Source: Fibrobacterota bacterium
GTDB taxonomy: Bacteria > Fibrobacterota > Fibrobacteria > UBA11236
DNA: 55,493 nucleotides
Assembly (NCBI GenBank): GCA_023249635.1
Contig: JAHFCH010000017.1
Coordinates: 1-55,493 of the forward strand
Direction: 5' to 3'
Shown here: positions 13,326 to 24,080 of the stretch, piece after piece
Layout of the letters: every line of letters starts with the position of its first letter
Position numbering within the stretch: the first letter of the stretch is position 1
Translations under genes and position numbers: made by a program
Notes under the pieces: generated by a model
Databases searched by the model: none
Told to the model about the DNA's origin: nothing
Seen by the model: only the letters and a program-made list of their open reading frames with translations

Positions 13326-14576
13326 CTAGCGCTTCGGATCCGGAGCCAGGAATTCCGTCGGGGCCATGCCGCGGATACGGATGTCGTCCAGGCCCAGCAC
13401 CAGGTTATCCTGGGCGAAGAAACCGATTTCGCCCACGAAGGGGGCGGCAGCCTTCCAGGCCAGACCCGCCTGGGCCGCAGGGCTCCCATCGGGCGGCGCG
13501 ATTTCACCGGGAAGGATCACGTACTCGGTCCAGGCCGGGGTGAGTACCACGATTTTCTCGAAATGGCTTTCGCCGCCGTATTTCTCCCACACCGTCTTGG
13601 TCATCAAGGTAACGTGCAAGCTACCGGTGCCCTTGGCCATGAAAGTCAAGGCGCGCATGCGGGAGAAATCGAACCAGCGTCCCGCCGGCGGCTTGCCGGT
13701 AAGCCCCGTGCTCAGCTCCAGGGCCAGCGTGTACAGGCCGGAAGGGGGCGGGGAAGCTTGAAAGGCCGCGGTTACCATGAGGCTTTTTCCGCGCCAGGCG
13801 CCCACCGTCACCAGCCCCACGGCGGGGTCGTCCAGGGCTCCCGCGGGATTCACGGTGATGCCGGAATCGGCGCGCGAGTACCAATTGCCGCCGCTCACGT
13901 AGGGGGCCAGGAGATGCTTGGCATCGCCGTCGTCGAAGTCCTCCAACCAAGTGGACTCGGCCGTATCCAGGGCCAGGGTATCGGTGGCGCGGGCGGTAGC
14001 GACGGGAACGGTCAGGCGCCCGCCCCCGGCGGTCGCGGCCAAGCGCAGGAACAGATCGGCCTGCGGCAATCCCGTCAGGGAGAAACGTCCCGACCCGTCG
14101 GACAGCGCGGAAACATCCGTGCCCGGCACGCTGACGCGGATGGTCCCGTTTCCGCCCGGCGCGGTCGCGATGCCGGCGTAGTCAAAAGTGGGCCGCACCG
14201 TGGAATCGGCGATGCTCAGGTTTACGTCGCCCGCGGAGATGGTGAAGGCGCGCGCCAAGGCCCCGTCGGCCACGGGCCGCGACAGGACCACGTAAACGCC
14301 CGCCGGGATCGAATCGAAGGCATAGCGTCCGACCGAATCGGTGCGGGCCGATTTGGCCAGGGAATCCCCGCAGTCCACGCAGGCGGTGCGTAGGGCCACC
14401 ATGGCGCCGACATAGGCATGTCCCGCCGAATCGCGTACCACACCGGAGACGGAGATGCCGTTGGTGGTTTCCGTGATCACGCCGGCGGTCTTACGGGATT
14501 CTCCGCAGGCGATCAGGTATACCGCGAGGCCGAAACGGAACCCGAACGAAAAGATGCGGGATACGCTCATGCTCAT
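13326..14576 (-). CDS. Surface lipoprotein with carboxypeptidase-regulatory-like and CBM11/CIA30-like domains
   Basis: This 416-residue protein starts with a lipoprotein signal whose lipobox is LIAC (VYLIACGES). After the Cys, a TTN-containing linker leads to a carboxypeptidase-regulatory-like Ig domain at about residues 45-130 (SVSGVVRDSAGHAYVGAMV, GRYAFDSIPAGVYVV). A second similar beta-domain follows at about 145-200. The C-terminal part (about 215-405) has features of a CBM11/CIA30-like jelly roll: WLEDFDDGD, the segment NWYSRADSG, and VLGLDDIRIRG. No enzyme motif is seen, so a sugar-binding or sensing role is inferred. Its ATG overlaps the stop of the TIGR02147 regulator as ATGA, so the two are translationally coupled. 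The same gene pairing occurs in mirror image at 15943-18431. Confidence 0.68.
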   Translation of the reverse strand: MSMSVSRIFSFGFRFGLAVYLIACGESRKTAGVITETTNGISVSGVVRDSAGHAYVGAMVALRTACVDCGDSLAKSARTDSVGRYAFDSIPAGVYVVLSRPVADGALARAFTISAGDVNLSIADSTVRPTFDYAGIATAPGGNGTIRVSVPGTDVSALSDGSGRFSLTGLPQADLFLRLAATAGGGRLTVPVATARATDTLALDTAESTWLEDFDDGDAKHLLAPYVSGGNWYSRADSGITVNPAGALDDPAVGLVTVGAWRGKSLMVTAAFQASPPPSGLYTLALELSTGLTGKPPAGRWFDFSRMRALTFMAKGTGSLHVTLMTKTVWEKYGGESHFEKIVVLTPAWTEYVILPGEIAPPDGSPAAQAGLAWKAAAPFVGEIGFFAQDNLVLGLDDIRIRGMAPTEFLAPDPKR

Positions 14577-15403
14577 GCGCTCAAGGGGAAAAGTTGCAGG
14601 TTCATCTGGTACACGCGGCCCCCGCCCCGACCCGAGCTGATCAACTCGACGATGGAACGCCGGTATTCCTTGGTGAGCCGATTCAGGGTTTCCAATTCAT
14701 CCTGCGTGGCGCTGAAGGTAAGGGTGGAAATGTCCCGCTCTTCCTTGGGAATGGCTTCCAGGGAGCGCTTGGCCAGATCCAGGGTTTCCGCCTGGAAGCG
14801 TTCCACCGCATAGGATTTCCAACGCTCGCCGGTGGATAGCGATTTCTGCACCGGTATGTGCCGCCCTTCGGCGTCGACGGCAACCAGGCCGAGTTCGATG
14901 AGGAGTTCGATGCTTGCGCGGGCCTCTTCCAGGGACAAGGCGGGATTGAGGCGCGTGGCCAGGCTGCGGTATTCCCGCGGGGTGCCGCGGAAGTCCATGC
15001 ATTCCAGCAGGGTATATACCGCGATGTAATACCAACGGCTGTAGTAATCGTACTTGCGCCCATCGAGGATATGCGGCCGCGCCTTTTGCGACTTGGCGAT
15101 CTTCTCGAACAGGGATTTGGCCTTGGCCGGATCACGGGCTTTTTGCCAGACCACCAGGCGCGCGAAATGCGCCTGCTCTTCTTCCGAGAACCCGCATACC
15201 TCGCGGAAGCGCGCGATCGCTCCCGCGGGCAGATGGCGTTTGCCGGCCAGCACCTTGGCCAGGTTGCTGGTATCCATGCCCGCCTTGAGCGCCATCACCT
15301 GCATGGAGAACGATCCGCGCCGCGCCTTCTTCCAGGCATAGTAGTCGGAAAGGAATCGCCGGTAGTCGAGATGGTCGAAGACCATCGGCATCGGCACTTG
15401 CAT
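14573..15403 (-). CDS. TIGR02147-family regulator (DUF4423), copy 1
   Basis: Starting at ATG 15403 gives 276 residues, identical in length to the second copy at 15943. TIGR02147 is a family expanded in Fibrobacter. Residues ~10-75 (FDHLDYRRFLSDYYAWKKAR, then SFSMQVMALKAGMDTSNLAKVL, each cut short here) look like an XRE-type helix-turn-helix region. The C-terminal half is DUF4423, ending ERDISTLTFSA and VYQMNLQLFPLS. A cytoplasmic DNA-binding role is inferred and no ligand is known. In-frame codons reach back to 15466 but lack a ribosome-binding site. The gene is translationally coupled to a surface lipoprotein. Its upstream region carries an inverted repeat and several TGACC boxes. Confidence 0.82.
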   Translation of the reverse strand: MQVPMPMVFDHLDYRRFLSDYYAWKKARRGSFSMQVMALKAGMDTSNLAKVLAGKRHLPAGAIARFREVCGFSEEEQAHFARLVVWQKARDPAKAKSLFEKIAKSQKARPHILDGRKYDYYSRWYYIAVYTLLECMDFRGTPREYRSLATRLNPALSLEEARASIELLIELGLVAVDAEGRHIPVQKSLSTGERWKSYAVERFQAETLDLAKRSLEAIPKEERDISTLTFSATQDELETLNRLTKEYRRSIVELISSGRGGGRVYQMNLQLFPLSA

Positions 15404-15562
15404 AGGCCCCGCTGCCGGGGGAGGGGAGGCATCCACCCCGTGAAAAGTAACCCAAGTTTTGACCATAAGAATGGGGTTTTTGGTCAGGAAAATCGGTATT
15501 TGACCTGTAATTGTGGAATTACAGGAGAAAAATTGACCTAAACTGGGCCTATCTTTGGGGAC
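15404..15562. promoter_or_regulatory. Divergent regulatory region of the TIGR02147 locus
   Basis: The region contains a perfect inverted repeat, CTGTAATT (15505-15512) and AATTACAG (15517-15524), with a four-base centre. It also has TTGACCT at 15500-15506 and 15533-15539, further TGACC-type boxes near 15462 (forward) and 15483 (reverse), and a local AT-rich composition unlike the flanks. This is where a regulator of the divergent genes would be expected to bind. Confidence 0.55.
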
Positions 15563-15823
15563 ATGAATCCCTGGCGGCCTGTCCTGTTCGCATTGCTGCT
15601 GATGCTCCTGTTCGGGTTGCGGGCCTGGTACGCCTGCCTGGGGGCGGACCGACGTAACACCAGCGTTACCCGGGGCGAAGGCGCCTCGCCTCCCATGGCT
15701 TCCCTGCCGGCCGGGGTGGCCGCCTTTGGTCCAGGCGGTACCGCTGAAGCAGCGCAGGGGCGGCTCGGAAGCGGGCTTGGGTTCCTGGTGTTGCCCGGCA
15801 ATCGTGTCTCGATCCGCCGGTAG
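15563..15823 (+). CDS. Small hypothetical membrane or secreted protein
   Basis: The 86-residue frame begins with a strong hydrophobic segment (PVLFALLLMLLFGLRAWYA). The remainder is low-complexity and Gly/Ala/Arg-rich. The ATG has GGGG close upstream, and it lies between the two divergent TIGR02147 genes. No family is recognised. The C-terminal part reads like chance translation of GC-rich DNA, so it may not be a gene. Confidence 0.35.
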   Translation: MNPWRPVLFALLLMLLFGLRAWYACLGADRRNTSVTRGEGASPPMASLPAGVAAFGPGGTAEAAQGRLGSGLGFLVLPGNRVSIRR

Positions 15824-15942
15824 CGCGCCTTTCCGGCGATTCCGCTCCGCAAAAGCCTAAATCCCGTTGCCCGTCTTCCGGTAATATCCCGCAGCCGGCC
15901 TAGGCGACTTCCGTAGATTGGAAGGGGAGCCGAGTCGCCGCC

Positions 15943-16773
15943 ATGCAGCCATTAAAGCACTACACCAATTACCGGGAGTATCTCGCCGACGCTTACCGCG
16001 AGCGCAAGGAAAAGGATCCGCGCTTCTCCTATCGGCGCCTCGCGGAGCTGGTAGGCTTCAAAACCGCGGGTTTTTTCACCCGCATCCTGAAGGGGGAGAA
16101 GAACATCTCGCCCGAGATGGTGGAACGGTTCGCGCGCTTCCTCGTGCTAAGCCCCAAGGAGGGCGAACTATTCCGCCAACTGGTGAGATTCAACCAGGCT
16201 CGCACCCACGAGGAAAAGAAGGCCGGCCTCGCAGGGCTTCTCAATGGCAGGCACTCCTGGTTGAAGCAGACGGCCGCCACCCAATTCCGATTCTACGAGA
16301 AATGGTATTACCCTCTGATTCGTGAAATCATGAACGTTTTCCCGTTCCGCGGTGATTACCGGAAGTTGGCGCGCAGCATCGTACCTCCCATCAGCCCGCG
16401 CGAGGCCATCGAAGCCGTGCGTTTCCTGGAAGGCGGAGGCTTCCTAAAAAAGGGTCCGGACGGGCGGTACGGTTTGGTAGATCGCTTCCTCAACGCCGGT
16501 CCCGACGTCGCGACGGTATCCATCCATACCTTCCAATTGGCCATGATGGATTTGGCGAAGAAGGCGTTGGAGCGGTTTCCGCCCGCCGAGCGTGACATTT
16601 CCACGCTGACGGTGGCCGTTTCCCGGGAAGGCGCGGAGCGCATGAAGGAACGCTTGGCGGAAATGCGCACCGAGCTGCTGGAGATCGCCAAGGCGGATGG
16701 CCGGGTCGATCGGGTTTTCCAAATCAACTTGCAGTTGTTCCCGGTTTCCGCGCCCAAGGAGGAGGGCGCATGA
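15943..16773 (+). CDS. TIGR02147-family regulator (DUF4423), copy 2
   Basis: This 276-residue paralogue of the gene at 14573 has the same plan: an N-terminal segment KHYTNYREYLADAYRERK, an XRE-like helix-turn-helix (RFSYRRLAELVGFKTAGFFT, then ILKGEKNISPEMVERFARFL), and a C-terminal DUF4423 part. That part carries the shared signature ERDISTLTVAVS and FQINLQLFPVS. The two copies are clearly divergent in sequence, so they are not a recent duplication. AAGGGGAG lies 13 bases before the ATG. Its stop overlaps the start of the downstream lipoprotein as ATGA, just as in copy 1. Role: probable cytoplasmic transcription regulator, inferred from the HTH and arrangement. Confidence 0.83.
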   Translation: MQPLKHYTNYREYLADAYRERKEKDPRFSYRRLAELVGFKTAGFFTRILKGEKNISPEMVERFARFLVLSPKEGELFRQLVRFNQARTHEEKKAGLAGLLNGRHSWLKQTAATQFRFYEKWYYPLIREIMNVFPFRGDYRKLARSIVPPISPREAIEAVRFLEGGGFLKKGPDGRYGLVDRFLNAGPDVATVSIHTFQLAMMDLAKKALERFPPAERDISTLTVAVSREGAERMKERLAEMRTELLEIAKADGRVDRVFQINLQLFPVSAPKEEGA

Positions 16774-18431
16774 GGGCGGTCCTGTGGGCGGTCGTCGCAT
16801 TGGCCTGGTTGGCCGCTTGCGGTGACGAGGAGCTGGCCGGAGGCAGCGGCTCCCAGACCACCAACACCATCGCGGGCGTATTCGTGAACGCAAACGGGCA
16901 AGCGCAGGCCGGCGTGCGCGTGCGTATGGTGCCGTCCACTTACGAACCCTTTACCGGCCAAGCGCTGCCTACAAGCTGGGCCGATACGACGGATGCGCGC
17001 GGGCGTTGGGACATCGCCGGTCTGGTGGACGGCGAGTACGCTCTGGAAGCGGAAGGGGGAAGCGAGGGCAGCGGATTCGCGGCCATGGGATTGCGCTTGC
17101 GAGGCGGGGAAAGCTCGCGGCGGGGGACGGATACCTTGGGTTCGCCGGGCACGATCGCGGTGCGTCTCTCAGCGGCAGAGCGGCTCCTGGGGGGCTGGCT
17201 GTATGTCCCCGGAACCACCTACCGCGCCTTGGTCCCGGCGGGAGCGGCCGGTCCCGGGGTAACACGGATGGAACCTCTGCCCGCAGGGAAGTATGCAACG
17301 GTCGCTTTCGCGAGGGCGGACGGGGCGAATTATTCCGTAGCCGGAGGGCCATTCCTGGTGCGGCCCGGGGCGGTGACGCCGGCGGGCCCTTTCGCGGCGT
17401 GGAAGTCGGCCTGGCGCGTGAACGTGCGCGCCGGGGCGGACGGCGCGGGCCTGCGGGAATCGGTTCGGGACTTCCCGCTACTCATCAAGCTCGACTCGAC
17501 CTTCAACTTCGCCGCCTGCCGCGGTGACGGGGCCGATGTACGCCTCGCCGACGGCTCGGGCGCGCCGCTGCCTATGGACGTGGAACGTTGGGATTCGGCG
17601 GGACGCCGCGCCGAACTCTGGACGCGGCTCGACAGCGTGGCGGCCGGTGCTGACATCGGCTTATGGCTGTTCGCGGGCCATCCGGGTTCTGCTCCCGTCC
17701 CGGGTCCCGCATTCGATACCTCGGCCGGATTCGCCGCCGTTTGGCATATGCAACGCATCCTGCCTTCCGCGGTTCCCGACACGGGCGTCTTCGTACCCGA
17801 CGCCACCCCTAACCATCTGGACGCGGCCTCACGTAACGGTGCCGGTACCCCCTTCGCGGAAGGCCCGGCCGGATCAGCCCTCCTGTTCGATGGCGTCGAT
17901 GACTTCCTCGATGCGGGCGCGGCGCCGGCCCTATCGCCGCGCGAGGGTTTCACCTTGGAGGCATGGATACGCCCGGCCCGTCTGCCGCATACCGGCACCG
18001 GCTTCGACGACGCCATGGTAATCGCCAAGTTCGACGCCTACTCCCTGGAATTGCAGGCGGACGGATCCACGGAAGCGTGGGTGCGCACGGGACCGGCCAA
18101 GGACGCCTTCACCTTGCGTAGCCCGGTGGCGGCCATCGCGGCGGATGCCTGGACGCATATGGCGGCGACCTATGATGGGGTTATGCTCAGGAGCTACGCC
18201 GACGGTGTTCTGCTGGCGGAGATTCCCGCGGCGGGCGCGGTCAGCCTCGTCGGCACGCATACGCTCATCGGTTACATCGAGGGGTGGCCCGGGATCGATC
18301 GGTATTTCGCGGGCGCCGTCGACGAGGCCCGCATTTCCAGGCGGGCGCGTTCGCAGGAATGGCTCAGGCTGGGGTTCGAGACCCAGAAACCCGGTAGCAG
18401 GAATGTTACCGTGGAAGCAGCGGCCGAATAA
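16770..18431 (+). CDS. Surface lipoprotein with carboxypeptidase-regulatory-like, DUF2341 and LamG domains
   Basis: This 553-residue protein has a lipoprotein signal with lipobox LAAC (WLAACGDEE). A TTN-containing linker leads into a carboxypeptidase-regulatory-like Ig domain at about residues 30-120 (IAGVFVNANGQAQAGVRVRM). A DUF2341 domain spans about 210-310 (RDFPLLIKLDSTFNF, GADVRLADGSGAPLP). A LamG/concanavalin-A-like jelly roll spans about 320-545 (SALLFDGVDDFLDAG, GFTLEAWIRPA, WTHMAATYDGVMLRSY, GAVDEARISRRARS). LamG domains bind glycans, and no catalytic residues are seen. The gene is translationally coupled to the TIGR02147 regulator upstream and lies 157 bases before a GH127-type gene. 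A glycan-binding surface receptor or scaffold is inferred. Confidence 0.78.
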   Translation: MRAVLWAVVALAWLAACGDEELAGGSGSQTTNTIAGVFVNANGQAQAGVRVRMVPSTYEPFTGQALPTSWADTTDARGRWDIAGLVDGEYALEAEGGSEGSGFAAMGLRLRGGESSRRGTDTLGSPGTIAVRLSAAERLLGGWLYVPGTTYRALVPAGAAGPGVTRMEPLPAGKYATVAFARADGANYSVAGGPFLVRPGAVTPAGPFAAWKSAWRVNVRAGADGAGLRESVRDFPLLIKLDSTFNFAACRGDGADVRLADGSGAPLPMDVERWDSAGRRAELWTRLDSVAAGADIGLWLFAGHPGSAPVPGPAFDTSAGFAAVWHMQRILPSAVPDTGVFVPDATPNHLDAASRNGAGTPFAEGPAGSALLFDGVDDFLDAGAAPALSPREGFTLEAWIRPARLPHTGTGFDDAMVIAKFDAYSLELQADGSTEAWVRTGPAKDAFTLRSPVAAIAADAWTHMAATYDGVMLRSYADGVLLAEIPAAGAVSLVGTHTLIGYIEGWPGIDRYFAGAVDEARISRRARSQEWLRLGFETQKPGSRNVTVEAAAE

Positions 18432-18588: not shown

Positions 18589-21159
18589 ATGCGCGGTACG
18601 AAAACCAAATTGTTGCGGGGGGCCCTGACGCTGGTCTGTCTCATAGGGGCAGGGGCTCTAGCGCGCCCGGCAGCCGCCGCGCCTATGCAGTCCTTCCCGC
18701 TGTCGGCCGTGCGGCTTACCGACGGGATATTCAAGACGGCCACGGATGTGAACCGGAAGGTGCTGGACGATATCGGCGCGGAGCGCGCCCTGCACTGCTT
18801 CCGCCTGCAGGCCAAGCTGCCCAGCTCGGCCCTGCCCCTGGGCGGTTGGGCAACGCCGGAACCCAGCGGGGCCTTCCCGGGACATTACGAAGGCCATTAC
18901 CTATCCGCCACGGCGCTCATGTATGCCGAAACCGGCGATCCCGTCCTCAAGCAACGCATCGACTATATGGTCGCGGAGTTGGCGAAATGCCAGGCGGCCC
19001 TTGGCGGGAAATACCTGTTCGCGTCGCCGCCCGAGGAATTCGAGGCCAACCGCATCGACGGCGTGGCCTGGTACCGGATGCATAAGGTGATGGAGGGCAT
19101 CTACGCATGCTACGCCCAAGCCGGAAACGCCCAGGCGCTCACCATTCTCACCAACCTTGCGGACTGGATGAAAACCCGCATGGACGCTTACTCGTCCGAC
19201 GACTGGGTCAAGATCAAGCAAATCGAATTCGGCGGCATGGCCGAGGCCCTTTACGATCTGTATACCGCCACCCGCAATCCGGTGCACAAGGCGATGGCGC
19301 AGCAGTGGGAGGAACGCGCAGCCATGCTCGATCCCCTGAACCAGGGAAAGGACGTGGTGTTCGGCCATGCCAATACCTATCTGGCCAAGATCGTGGGAGC
19401 CGCCCGCGTGGCCGAGATGGAAGGCGATCCCTATTACCTCAAGGCCATGCAGAATTTCTGGGAGTTTACGGCCGGTACCGGCCGACGCACATACGCCACG
19501 GGCGGCACCAGCGTGCATGAGGGCTTGCCGGGCCCGCGCGTGCTTTCCAACACCCTGGAAAAGCTTCCCCAGGAAACCTGCGTCAGCTACAACATGATGA
19601 AGGTGACGCGTAGCCTTTTCCTGGCGACCGGGGAGTCCAAGTACATGGACTACGCGGAGCGGCTCCTCTTCAACGCAATCCTGGGAAGCCAGGATCCCGT
19701 CACGGGCTGGAAGACCTACTACCAGCCCTTGTACGCCAATACCGTCAAGGATTTCCGCGACTACCTCACGGGATGTTACTGCTGCAACGGAACGGGTATG
19801 GAGAGTTTCTCCAAGCTGGGCCAGAACGTCTTCACCCACGATGATCGCGCCATCTACGTGAACCTGTTCCTCTCCGCCAAGGTGAGCTGGCCGGAACGGA
19901 GCGTATTCATCGAGCAGTCCACCCGCTTCCCGGAAGAGGCGGCTAGCCATATCGTCGTACACCCGTCCATTCCCGGCATGCTGCGGATCGCGATACGCGT
20001 GCCCGCGTGGTGCAAAGGCTTCGGCCTTTCCGTAAACGGGGAGGCGGTCGCGGCTTCGGCTTCGGGAGGCTATGCCTTCGTGGAACGGTCGTGGCAGGAC
20101 GGGGACAAGATCGACGTGCGGCTTCCGATGGATTTCTCCGTCGAGGCCATGCCGGATCTCCCCACCCAGGTCGCCTTCCTCAAGGGCCCGATCGTGATGG
20201 TGGGATCGCGTGCGCGGCCGAACCGATCCGAACTAATCGGGGATATCGCCGATAAGGGTTCGTGGTTCAACAACCTGAACGGGTTCTTCCGGCCCGCCAC
20301 GGGCGCTCTGCGCTATGACGCCACCGATGGCGCCGGCCGTTCCCTTTCCTTCAAGCCTTATTACCAGGTGGGCGGCGATGAATTCTTCACGGGATATTTC
20401 GATGTGGCGCGCGTACCGACAGTACCCGACGAAGGCAATATCGCATTGGGGCGACCCACCCGCGAGTCGATGCCCCAGGCGTCCGGAGACAATCTGGCCT
20501 GCTTCGGCCGCGGCGCGCGTGCCGTGGACGGGATGTCCGGGAGCTGGTATTCCAAATGGCTGTCCGGCGGGGGATTCCCATCCTGGTTGCAGATCGATCT
20601 GGAGCAGGAATACCGCTTGGAGCGGACCGAGTTCTGGCCGCCGCCCACCGGGGACGGGGATAGGAAGAAGTATTACAAATATCGCATAGAAATCTCGAAA
20701 GACGCGGTGCATTGGGAGGCCTACGCCGACCGCACCGGCAATACCGCCCTCGCCGAACCCGCTTACGTGGACAAGATTGCCGCCACGGCGCGCTACCTGC
20801 GCATAACCCTGTACGATACCCCTGGGCAGCTTTACGCCGGGGCGCCGCCCGATATCGGCGAGTTCAAGGCCTTCGGAACCCCTGCCTCGGTGCCCGTGCG
20901 GAAGGCCGCAAGCCTGCACCGATTCACCCTGACCGGTCCGGGAGGTATCGCCTTGGCCGCCATGACGGCGGCGCAGGTCAAGCGGATCGATCTTCTCGAC
21001 GTGGGCGGTCGCCTGGTGAGGAGCTTGCGCCCCGATGGCATGGTCATCCGCTGGGATGGTAGGGATGAGCGGGGCCGCACGGTCCCTTCCGGGACGCTCG
21101 TAATCCAGGCGCTGACTTCGGAAGGCATATTCCACACAACCTCAGCCTGGTCGAAATAG
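18589..21159 (+). CDS. Secreted GH127-type (DUF1680) beta-L-arabinofuranosidase with discoidin domain
   Basis: This 856-residue protein has a signal peptide (hydrophobic GALTLVCLIGAGALARPAAA). The DUF1680/GH127 catalytic domain spans about residues 35-600. Compared with the characterised GH127 enzyme, the likely acid/base is Glu311. The zinc ligands would be Glu329, Cys331, Cys398 and Cys399, with Cys398 as nucleophile, in the motifs HEGLPGP, QETCVSYNM and GCYCCNGTGMES. A discoidin/F5-8C domain follows at about 615-770 (NIALGRPT, WLQIDLEQEYRLERTEFW, ATARYLRITLYD). A FlgD-like C-terminal segment comes last (RIDLLDVGGRLVRSL, RWDGRDERGRTVPSGTLV). GGGGGAAG precedes the ATG. Five bases separate it from the esterase gene, so they form an operon acting on arabinose-decorated polysaccharides. 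Confidence 0.82.
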   Translation: MRGTKTKLLRGALTLVCLIGAGALARPAAAAPMQSFPLSAVRLTDGIFKTATDVNRKVLDDIGAERALHCFRLQAKLPSSALPLGGWATPEPSGAFPGHYEGHYLSATALMYAETGDPVLKQRIDYMVAELAKCQAALGGKYLFASPPEEFEANRIDGVAWYRMHKVMEGIYACYAQAGNAQALTILTNLADWMKTRMDAYSSDDWVKIKQIEFGGMAEALYDLYTATRNPVHKAMAQQWEERAAMLDPLNQGKDVVFGHANTYLAKIVGAARVAEMEGDPYYLKAMQNFWEFTAGTGRRTYATGGTSVHEGLPGPRVLSNTLEKLPQETCVSYNMMKVTRSLFLATGESKYMDYAERLLFNAILGSQDPVTGWKTYYQPLYANTVKDFRDYLTGCYCCNGTGMESFSKLGQNVFTHDDRAIYVNLFLSAKVSWPERSVFIEQSTRFPEEAASHIVVHPSIPGMLRIAIRVPAWCKGFGLSVNGEAVAASASGGYAFVERSWQDGDKIDVRLPMDFSVEAMPDLPTQVAFLKGPIVMVGSRARPNRSELIGDIADKGSWFNNLNGFFRPATGALRYDATDGAGRSLSFKPYYQVGGDEFFTGYFDVARVPTVPDEGNIALGRPTRESMPQASGDNLACFGRGARAVDGMSGSWYSKWLSGGGFPSWLQIDLEQEYRLERTEFWPPPTGDGDRKKYYKYRIEISKDAVHWEAYADRTGNTALAEPAYVDKIAATARYLRITLYDTPGQLYAGAPPDIGEFKAFGTPASVPVRKAASLHRFTLTGPGGIALAAMTAAQVKRIDLLDVGGRLVRSLRPDGMVIRWDGRDERGRTVPSGTLVIQALTSEGIFHTTSAWSK

Positions 21160-21164
21160 GAGGA

Positions 21165-24080
21165 ATGATGCGTAACTTCCGCTTGGCGATGGCATTTGCC
21201 GCCTCCCCTTTCCTGGCCGCCGGCGCCGCCAGCTTCTCCCCTTTGTTCGGTGATCATGCCGTACTGCAACGGGGCAAACCCGTACCGGTATGGGGAACCG
21301 CCGCTCCCGGAGAGCAGGGTACCCTTGGCTTCGGCGCATTCACGACTCCCTTCCGGGCGGATGACCAGGGTAACTGGAAGGTTACCTTACCGGCCATGAA
21401 CGCCAACCCGGTCCCCCAACGCCTGTCTCTCTCCGGCGGGGGCGCAGCGGTCGAGGATGTCGTAATCGGCGATGTCTGGCTGTGCAGCGGCCAATCCAAC
21501 ATGGCCTATTCGCTTGGCTCGGATGGCCGAAGCGCGGATATCGCCGCCGCCGCGTATCCCGGGATGCGGCAATTCAGCGTGCCCTTGGTGAACTCGGCGG
21601 AACCGGTGCCGACCGTTACGGGAACCTGGAGCGTATGTTCCCCCGCGACCGCGGCCGGCTTCTCCGCGGTCGCGTTCTACTTCGGCCGATCCATCTGGTT
21701 GGATCAGAACCGTGGCGTTCCCATCGGACTGCTGGTGTCCTCGGTGGGGGGAACGCAAATCGATCCTTGGCTTGCGCCCGAGGGTGTTGCCGATCAGCCG
21801 GCCCTGGCGCCCTTGTATTCCAAAAGCATCCTTCCCTTCGGCCCTTTTTCGCTGTTCAACGGCATGATCTACCCGTTGGCGCCGCTCGCCTTCAAGGGGG
21901 CGATCTGGTATCAAGGGGAAAGCGGCGAGGGCAGCAACCAAGGGCCCGACAGCTACCATCTCAAAATGAAAGCCCTGGTAAGAGGTTGGAGCCGCTTATT
22001 CGGGATGCCCGATCTCCCCTTCTATTTCGTGCAGATCGCCAATTATACCCAGGCTCCTGCGGGTCCCACTCCGGAAGCGCCCGGCGGCTGGGCCGATACC
22101 CGCCGGCAGCAGACCGCTTCGCTCTCCATTCCCCATAGCGGTATGGCCGTGGCCATCGATGTGGGCGAAGCGGACGATATCCATCCTAAGGACAAATTGG
22201 ACGTGGGCGAACGCTTGGCGAGTTGGGCGCTGCACAACGATTACGGGCGCACCTCCGTGGTCCCCGGCGGCCCCATCCTGCGTGATGCCGTAGCCGACGG
22301 GAATCGCATCGTATGTAGTTTCGAGTATACGGGATCCGGCCTCATCTCCGGCTCCAAGACTCCCTACCTGCCGGTACGCGAAACTCCCGAACAACCCTTG
22401 CGCAGGTTTTCCATTGCGGGTGCGGACGGGGTCTGGCGCGAAGCGGATGCGAAAATAGCGGGCCTCACGGTAGTCCTGTCCAATGCCGCCATCCCGGTCC
22501 CGCGCAAGGCCGCCTACGCCTACTGGATGAATCCGGAAGGCTGCAATCTCTATAACCGGAACGGATTCCCCGCCTCCCCGTTCCTGGTGGAAGACGTAAC
22601 GCAACGGTTTCGCATAACCGCCCAGGCCGGGGCCGGCGGCTCCGTAACGCCCGCGGGGGATGCGACCTTTTTGGCCGGGGCGACACCGGCTTTCGCGATC
22701 GTCCCCGCGACGGGCCAGTACATTGCCGACCTCAAAGTCGACGGACGATCGCTGGGCGCCGTCACGCAATACGCATTCGATCCCTTGCGCGGCGATCATG
22801 CCCTCTCCGCCGAGTTCACCCCCTTGCGGCCCCGTTACGGTATCCGCGCCGATGCGGGGGCGGGAGGAACGGTTTCACCCTCCGGGGTCACGCCCGCGCT
22901 GCAAGGTTCTGCGGCGACAATCCGCATTGCGCCCGATTCGGGTTGCCGAGCCTCCCTTCTCATGGATGGGGCGCCCATGGGTCCACGCGACGCCTTCACG
23001 TTCTCCGATATCAGCGCGGATCACGTATTGACCATCGATTTCTCCTGTCCTATCCTCGCCGAAGCGGGATTCGGAGGGGTCATTACGCCTTTCGGATCGG
23101 TACCCGCGCCGGCGGGTAAGGACCGTGCCTTCACGTTCACCCCATTGCCGGGATACAAGCTGGCGGGGGTGCGCGTCGACGGCAAGGACATCGGCAGTCC
23201 CGCGTCTTACGTATTCCCCAAAGTCACGGGCCCGCACACGCTGGCGGTCGCATTCGCCGGGGGGGCCGGCGCGTCCGGGAGCCTGCCCCAGGCCGCGAAG
23301 CTGATCTTCTCCTGCATGGCGGACCGGCTTCCGGGTAACGGAGCGGTTACCTCATGGCCCGCTACCGGATTCGATCGCGCGTTCACGCCGCTGGGGACGC
23401 CGGCGGTGGAAATCCTGGACGGCCGCCGGTACATGCGCGCCCAATACCTGCGCGGTGATGGTATGGACGCGGGCACCTTCACCGCTCCCATCGCTTGCGC
23501 CGGGGCGACCATCGTCGTAGTCGCCCGGCCTGTCCGCAGCGGCGCGACCAGCAACTGGAATTCCATCGTGAACATCTTCCATGACCGGCTGAGCCTGGGA
23601 TTACGCAACGATACGGGTAAGCCTTGCGTGCTGCGGAATGGGGTCCTTTCCGAGGGCGGCGTCGCCATACCGGATGGTCAGATCACGATCTTAAGCCTGG
23701 TGGTACAGGAAGACGGGAGCTATCGGGTCTTCGCGAACGGGAGTCAGGTCATGGTGGAGACGGCCGTCAAACCGATGACCTCGCTGCAGCCCGGGGTGGC
23801 GGGCGCATTCGCGACGCATATCACCTTGGGGCGCAACGGTGCCGACTCCTGGTCCGCCTTCAACGGCGACATCGGGGACGTGTACCTGTATGGCATTCCG
23901 CTGAGCGACGGCGAACGCCAGAACCTGGAAGCGTTGATCGAGAAGCGGCTCATCGGAGGAAACACGGTGGGCCTGGCGACCGCGCGCAGGGGTGGGGCCC
24001 CAGCCGCCGGGAAATCGATGCGGGATCGTCGTCTCGACGGCCGCAGCATCCCATCCCGCCGCGCTAAGGCCGGCCGTTGA
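21165..24080 (+). CDS. Secreted SASA-type sialate/xylan O-acetylesterase with InlB-like repeats and LamG-like domain
   Basis: This 971-residue protein has a signal peptide (LAMAFAASPFLAAGAAS). A SASA/GDSL-like esterase covers about residues 20-480, with catalytic Ser111 in SGQSNM and the Asp338-Ile-His340 pair in DDIHPKDK. Other family segments are SSVGGTQIDPW and GAIWYQGES. Three divergent InlB-B-type repeats follow at about 485-700 (FRITAQAGAGGSVTPAGDA, YGIRADAGAGGTVSPSG, AEAGFGGVITPFGS). A LamG-like domain spans about 710-935. The C-terminal tail is basic (LDGRSIPSRRAKAGR). AGGAGG overlaps the upstream stop; ATG 21168 is an equally good start. It probably removes acetyl groups from hemicellulose or pectin so that the co-transcribed GH127 enzyme can act. 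Confidence 0.8.
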   Translation: MMRNFRLAMAFAASPFLAAGAASFSPLFGDHAVLQRGKPVPVWGTAAPGEQGTLGFGAFTTPFRADDQGNWKVTLPAMNANPVPQRLSLSGGGAAVEDVVIGDVWLCSGQSNMAYSLGSDGRSADIAAAAYPGMRQFSVPLVNSAEPVPTVTGTWSVCSPATAAGFSAVAFYFGRSIWLDQNRGVPIGLLVSSVGGTQIDPWLAPEGVADQPALAPLYSKSILPFGPFSLFNGMIYPLAPLAFKGAIWYQGESGEGSNQGPDSYHLKMKALVRGWSRLFGMPDLPFYFVQIANYTQAPAGPTPEAPGGWADTRRQQTASLSIPHSGMAVAIDVGEADDIHPKDKLDVGERLASWALHNDYGRTSVVPGGPILRDAVADGNRIVCSFEYTGSGLISGSKTPYLPVRETPEQPLRRFSIAGADGVWREADAKIAGLTVVLSNAAIPVPRKAAYAYWMNPEGCNLYNRNGFPASPFLVEDVTQRFRITAQAGAGGSVTPAGDATFLAGATPAFAIVPATGQYIADLKVDGRSLGAVTQYAFDPLRGDHALSAEFTPLRPRYGIRADAGAGGTVSPSGVTPALQGSAATIRIAPDSGCRASLLMDGAPMGPRDAFTFSDISADHVLTIDFSCPILAEAGFGGVITPFGSVPAPAGKDRAFTFTPLPGYKLAGVRVDGKDIGSPASYVFPKVTGPHTLAVAFAGGAGASGSLPQAAKLIFSCMADRLPGNGAVTSWPATGFDRAFTPLGTPAVEILDGRRYMRAQYLRGDGMDAGTFTAPIACAGATIVVVARPVRSGATSNWNSIVNIFHDRLSLGLRNDTGKPCVLRNGVLSEGGVAIPDGQITILSLVVQEDGSYRVFANGSQVMVETAVKPMTSLQPGVAGAFATHITLGRNGADSWSAFNGDIGDVYLYGIPLSDGERQNLEALIEKRLIGGNTVGLATARRGGAPAAGKSMRDRRLDGRSIPSRRAKAGR

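Follow-up and report, generated by a model that had tools for sequence, protein, structure and literature searches.

The window analysed here is a stretch of 55,493 nucleotides from a Fibrobacterota bacterium (contig JAHFCH010000017.1), which carries two divergently oriented gene pairs, each made of a TIGR02147/DUF4423 regulator and an exported lipoprotein. In the right pair, a 276-residue regulator (15943-16773, + strand; TIGR02147 257 bits over model positions 1-270, DUF4423 E 7e-29, HTH_31 E 4e-5) with a helix-turn-helix (HTH), a winged-helix-like and a C-terminal domain shares the ATGA at 16770-16773 with the gene of a 553-residue lipoprotein (16770-18431, +). This partner has a signal peptide with the lipobox LAAC (Cys17), the N-terminal motif AGGSGSQTTN (residues 23-32; 16836-16865, +), a weakly matching CarboxypepD_reg-like domain, and the Pfam domains DUF2341 and LamG (LamG_3). 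The left regulator (14573-15403, - strand; TIGR02147 234 bits over model positions 2-270, DUF4423 E 4e-33) also has 276 residues when read from the ATG at 15403 (297 from an alternative ATG at 15466), and shares the ATGA at 14573-14576 with a 416-residue lipoprotein (13326-14576, -) that possesses a signal peptide with the lipobox LIAC (Cys24), the motif AGVITETTN (residues 31-39; 14460-14486, -) and a clear CarboxypepD_reg domain. Both regulators belong, by the curated cut-off of 50 bits, to TIGR02147/Fsuc_second, an NCBIfam paralog family with DUF4423 (PF14394).

An earlier note on this DNA had described both units with their ATGA overlaps, regulators and lipobox-bearing partners, and this description is confirmed. 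It had placed them at 14573-18431, where both units do lie, but the left lipoprotein (14576-13326) falls outside that range. Its domain calls hold for CarboxypepD_reg in both partners and for DUF2341 and LamG in the right one, but not for a CBM11/CIA30 domain in the left lipoprotein, which Pfam did not find at E up to 0.1. The shared length of 276 residues is real and is also the norm of the family. At 29% identity the two regulators are as far apart as members of the family usually are (median pairwise identity 31%), and hence do not form a diverged sister pair; closer relatives of each are encoded at other sites of the same genome. The suggestion that two copies had diverged while keeping their length was thus mistaken, as they are unrelated members of a large family. 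TIGR02147 has 85 matches, all of which were retrieved and 79 of which are full-length genes, in this genome of 6.75 Mb (341 contigs), and the family is expanded across Fibrobacterota, with members in 111 of 121 genomes.

The coupling seen in the window extends through the whole genome. A lipoprotein is encoded directly after about 75 of the 78 full-length TIGR02147 genes that could be judged (75 by script, less one spurious frame at L072, gives 74, to which L023 was added by eye; one gene at a contig edge was left out), and the members without a lipoprotein partner next to them are L059(+), L068 and L072(+). Among 74 pairs, 65 partner genes overlap the regulator, 51 of these at exactly -4, while seven start within 15 bp and two are spaced; over all of the roughly 75 pairs, about 52 have the 4-base overlap. 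In 802 kb of control sequence from this genome, a lipoprotein follows 15 of 16 TIGR02147 genes versus 113 of 402 co-directional genes of other kinds (Fisher 1e-7); for a start at -4 the counts are 10 of 16 and 57 of 402. The lipobox rule is loose, and the contrast is therefore conservative; chance is excluded as the source of the coupling. The earlier note had named beforehand, as the outcome that would count against it, a survey in which TIGR02147 genes rarely neighbour lipoproteins, and the result favours the finding instead. Upstream of the pairs the median gap is 209 bp, and downstream of the 64 pairs with a called gene, 26 are followed by a convergent gene and 17 by a co-directional gene within 100 bp, so that most pairs look like stand-alone bicistrons.

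Regulators are mostly 267-294 residues long. Complete Fibrobacterota partners span 185-969 residues and are usually lipoproteins with one copy of a short motif near the anchor; the lipid Cys is invariant across 66 aligned partners, of which 29 have LamG and 27 have DUF2341. The motif, which we call the tag, lies at the mature N-terminus of the partner and has the form G-x-[ED]-[TVI]-[GTE]-N. It corresponds to what the earlier note had called a TTN-containing linker. An ungapped motif search on the partners of this genome returned G-G-G-[ST]-[ED]-T-[GET]-N, located in most cases 5-15 residues beyond the lipid Cys. With a position-specific scoring matrix in leave-one-out mode, 80% of the partners score at least 10 bits, compared with none of 163 other lipoproteins and none of 186 other exported proteins of the genome, the best of which reaches 9.8 bits. 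A general lipoprotein-surface signal was considered for the tag and rejected on these 0 of 349 sampled proteins. Applied to other Fibrobacterota, the same matrix gives at least 8 bits for 87% of the partners, and for 3% after shuffling.

The arrangement is not confined to this genome. In other Fibrobacterota, an exported protein follows the regulator at 71 of 74 testable loci and overlaps it at 55. A search with the family alignment also matched one Bdellovibrionota record (L156), and in this phylum the family occurs in 66 of 78 genomes with up to 38 copies. For the 30 strongest Bdellovibrionota members the next gene encodes an exported protein in 28 cases (25 overlapping), and for weaker members in 36 of 58. 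A separate de novo search among the Bdellovibrionota partners gave G-G-[TGF]-[ED]-[VIT]-G-N-G; a strict pattern is matched by 23 of the 28 partners of the strongest members (0.6 expected) and by 6 of 40 partners of weaker ones (0.7 expected; 16 of 40 with a relaxed pattern), versus none of 52 control open reading frames. Many Bdellovibrionota partners have no lipobox, some are as short as 67, 68 and 71 residues, and the tag is present in partners without a lipobox as well. It occurs twice in the Bdellovibrionota partners L176, L177, L178, L181 and L185 and in the Fibrobacterota partners L029 and L121. Since anchor, domains and length vary while the tag stays, the tag is the conserved element. 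In Chitinivibrionales and other Fibrobacterota relatives (L136, L142, L143, L144 and L146) the residues before the lipid Cys are unusual (SRC, LRC, VHC, NHC), and lipobox rules may be relaxed there.

Regulator and tag also vary together. Over 70 pairs of this genome with model-aligned regulator columns (Mantel tests), DUF4423 correlates with the mature N-terminus of the partner (r 0.36-0.42) about as it does with its own HTH (0.36). The correlation of DUF4423 with the N-terminus remains 0.35-0.40 given the HTH, while for the HTH given DUF4423 it falls to about zero; the C-terminus of the partner shows a weak correlation. The signal peaks at regulator columns 135-225 and not in the last segment, which is nearest to the partner gene. 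Signal peptides were uninformative in this respect, being uncorrelated even with their own mature domain. By mutual information between tag positions and the 279 regulator columns, columns 199, 190 and 219 take the first three places in this genome and places 3, 7 and 4 in other Fibrobacterota, although the two sets are imperfectly independent because the second includes loci related to pairs of the first. At column 199, Gln pairs with Thr after the acidic tag residue, whereas His, Leu, Asn or Ile pairs with Val, Ile or Ala. This Gln199-Thr5 association has a Fisher probability of 2e-10 in this genome and 2e-11 in other Fibrobacterota, and disjoint nearest contrasts were concordant without exception (24:0 and 23:0; 55:0 when pooled with Bdellovibrionota, first of 279 columns). 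With columns 185-225 excluded from tree building, 6 of the 13 changes involving Gln share both branch and direction with Thr changes (rank 1 of 731 column-residue tests, phi 0.73; 300 shuffles). The window follows the rule: column 199 is Gln in both regulators (Gln198 of the right one, 16534-16536, +, co-varying with motif residue 5; Gln204 of the left one, 14792-14794, -), and both tags carry Thr. Together with the prevalent adjacency in this genome, other Fibrobacterota and the strong Bdellovibrionota members, this residue-level code supports the proposal of the earlier note that the coupling is under selection and the proteins form a matched pair.

HTH-only relatives that have lost most of DUF4423 have no partner. 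Such proteins are found at L072:4713-5511 (-), L074:3273-4022 (-) and L075:2101-2898 (-), all coordinates approximate; they are TIGR02147-type HTH proteins without the winged-helix part of DUF4423 but with the RVFQISMLVKP-like C-terminal end kept, and they are not followed by a lipoprotein gene. They are a natural control in which the absence of the recognition domain goes with the absence of a partner. In a post hoc look, either the conserved Trp or the R-x-x-S signature was seen to be lost from the full-length members of this genome that have no partner. One Bdellovibrionota subfamily in which the next gene encodes no exported protein (L257, L264, L266, L268, L270-L272, L274 and L275) mostly has Tyr at column 199, and TQDF in place of R-x-x-S.

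The regulators have no membrane segment (maximum 19-residue hydropathy 1.58), and they have HTH and winged-helix-like folds of putative DNA-binding function. Possible target sites are suggested by palindromes upstream of some pairs. For instance, the left pair has a candidate operator 101 bp upstream of the regulator start (15504-15525), a perfect 22-bp palindrome of the form CCTGTAATT-GTGG-AATTACAGG, whose 20-bp core CTGTAATTNNNNAATTACAG has no second occurrence in the genome when up to one mismatch is allowed. Another element, TGTTTCCAnnTGGAAACA, is common to a small clade; the genome has exactly two copies, each located upstream of such a pair, and a related pair in another species is preceded by it too. 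No single global operator motif was found across the family, and the palindromes look clade-specific, which hints at private, local operators.

The explanation we favour, tentatively and on comparative sequence evidence, is that each unit is a self-contained couple of a regulator and a tagged exported protein, in which DUF4423 recognises the tag with pair-specific residues, most simply on the precursor before export. The exclusivity of the tag together with the residue code makes recognition by DUF4423 the simplest account, and for a regulator without a membrane segment and a partner bound for export, the cytosol is the simplest meeting place. The regulator would thus read the short tag at the mature N-terminus of its own partner while the precursor, made from the same overlapping message, is still inside the cell. 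It could in this way report how much precursor waits or has been exported, and may, by way of a private operator, adjust transcription of its own operon to that level. On this view the working surface modules would be the variable C-terminal domains (LamG, DUF2341, CBM- or LRR-like and others), and the genome would possess about 75 separately controlled surface proteins. Seen more broadly, it seems about evenly balanced whether diderm bacteria have here a signalling family based on recognition of a peptide or precursor, in which DUF4423 reads the tag of its own partner by an amino-acid code. Each genome would then run dozens of private circuits in parallel, and this in two phyla, of which one includes predators such as Bdellovibrio.

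Several observations weigh against this explanation. The tree test counts only 6 shared changes out of 20 and 13, where shuffling gave a mean of 1.5 and a maximum of 6, and co-inheritance of adjacent sequence, with HTH domains exchanged, can produce co-variation. Bdellovibrionota do not show the Gln-Thr rule, with His at column 199 in nearly all cases, and a minority of partners have a weak motif or none (e.g. L027, L071). The AlphaFold2 model of the right regulator is mediocre (predicted template modelling score 0.47; predicted local distance difference test 75) and has no significant match in the PDB, where sequence and fold searches returned only generic HTH/MarR-like hits. Upstream palindromes with at least 8 paired positions are only modestly enriched (18% versus 7% for other genes, p 0.009).

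A serious rival, though a rather unlikely one, takes the tag as an address or processing signal read by a dedicated envelope machine, with the regulator making no contact with it and merely controlling the expression of this protein class, and the co-variation left over from co-inheritance. The tag does sit just after the signal peptide or lipid anchor, where sorting signals are placed, and DUF4423 and the partner N-terminus are encoded side by side and are duplicated as one; the partners of closely related regulator paralogues have similar N-termini and dissimilar C-termini (e.g. L013/L057). However, a sorting tag would not need to match a single regulator column (55 versus 0 contrasts), the correlation peaks away from the segment nearest to the partner gene, and no other sampled exported protein uses the tag. 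It is less probable still that the tag is a peptide signal that is exported, released by proteolysis, taken back up and bound by DUF4423 in the cytosol, as in a diderm version of RRNPP (Rap-Phr) sensing. A receptor gene followed by an overlapping exported gene, a pair-specific residue code, and a short linear element duplicated in some partners, including the Bdellovibrionota proteins of 67 and 71 residues (L177 and L178), would all fit, and tandem pheromone copies are known from RRNPPA propeptides (PMC11343458). The usual Fibrobacterota partner is instead a long lipoprotein with one tag near its anchor, neither a protease for release nor an importer is a recurrent neighbour of the pairs, no tetratricopeptide repeat (TPR) is reported in the regulator, and the tag is poorly suited to private signalling because its core is common to dozens of paralogues. 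Between the two possible ligands of DUF4423 we prefer the unexported precursor, since nothing else is needed, while the small proteins with repeated tags suggest a returned peptide.

The earlier note had suggested that each window pair is perhaps a glycan receptor at the surface together with its regulator. This reading, with control over nearby carbohydrate-active genes such as GH127, now appears very improbable. LamG, DUF2341 and CarboxypepD_reg are present in many partners, and the right pair is indeed followed, as the note said, by GH127 (18589-21159) and an acetylesterase of the SASA type (21165-24080). However, GH127 begins 157 bp beyond the stop codon of the lipoprotein, LamG and DUF2341 each occur in under half of the partners, many of which have no glycan-type domain, and Bdellovibrionota partners are often small and non-lipidated. 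No carbohydrate-active enzyme (CAZyme) or other glycan enzyme family recurs in the genes downstream of 34 pairs, and upstream genes show little recurrence (3keto-disac_hyd in 5 of 63); an association of the pairs with CAZymes or polysaccharide utilization loci was rejected for want of a recurrent family among the neighbours. Moreover, a candidate operator core that is unique in the genome argues for local control. Anti-phage defence was likewise rejected, as PADLOC gave only a 14-bit LmuC match (E 0.007) and no passing stretch.

Among known systems, the RRNPP couples (Rap-Phr, PlcR-PapR and Rgg-SHP) consist of a cytosolic, often DNA-binding receptor of 250-500 residues and a propeptide of 10-100 residues (PMC10075063). 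The TIGR02147 pairs resemble them in their adjacent genes, in a receptor within this size range, in an exported product and in a short linear element that is sometimes duplicated. They differ in having a partner that is usually a long lipoprotein (only a few Bdellovibrionota partners fit the propeptide range), in belonging to diderm phyla and in carrying the tag near the mature N-terminus. For the two window regulators, Pfam gave no TPR family, and neither a TPR chain by profile nor a significant fold match was found. FecI-FecR and SusCD-type systems link a surface protein to the control of its own expression. A TIGR02147 pair would do the same, but with a soluble HTH protein as regulator and without an anti-sigma factor, a membrane-spanning regulator or a porin. 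In the open-access literature we found no paper that mentions TIGR02147 and no described function, partner or motif; one paper tables a DUF4423 protein, Bd3700. Given this, and given that no system among those tested matches, the pairs appear to be novel, and what the present analysis adds to TIGR02147/DUF4423 is the exported partner with its motif and the pairing code. One of the large regulator expansions of Fibrobacterota thereby gains a constant partner, a motif that defines it in two phyla, and a pairing rule that comes down to a single residue. If the proposed recognition is true, a cytosolic regulator would have a new means of sensing a surface protein that belongs to its own cell or to kin, many times over in one genome, and this would offer a route to studying how paralogous circuits are insulated.

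Individual pairs seem to be short-lived. Searched against five other species of the genus, the window regulators have best matches of 41-45% identity, which does not exceed that of paralogues, and no orthologues of the two pairs were found there; the arrangement is kept, but the window's own instances turn over. Recent duplicates are seen in L009 and L010, whose regulators are 97% identical while the partners retain 92% in the N-domains and 82% in the C-termini, so the variable end is already diverging faster. The regulators of L027 and L015 are 69% identical, and L027 is followed at 144 bp by a different, motif-less lipoprotein, which likely reflects a replacement of the partner. Within the window, an 86-residue open frame that has a hydrophobic start and no Pfam match, and is possibly spurious, lies in the divergent intergenic region (15563-15823, +), clear of both operons.

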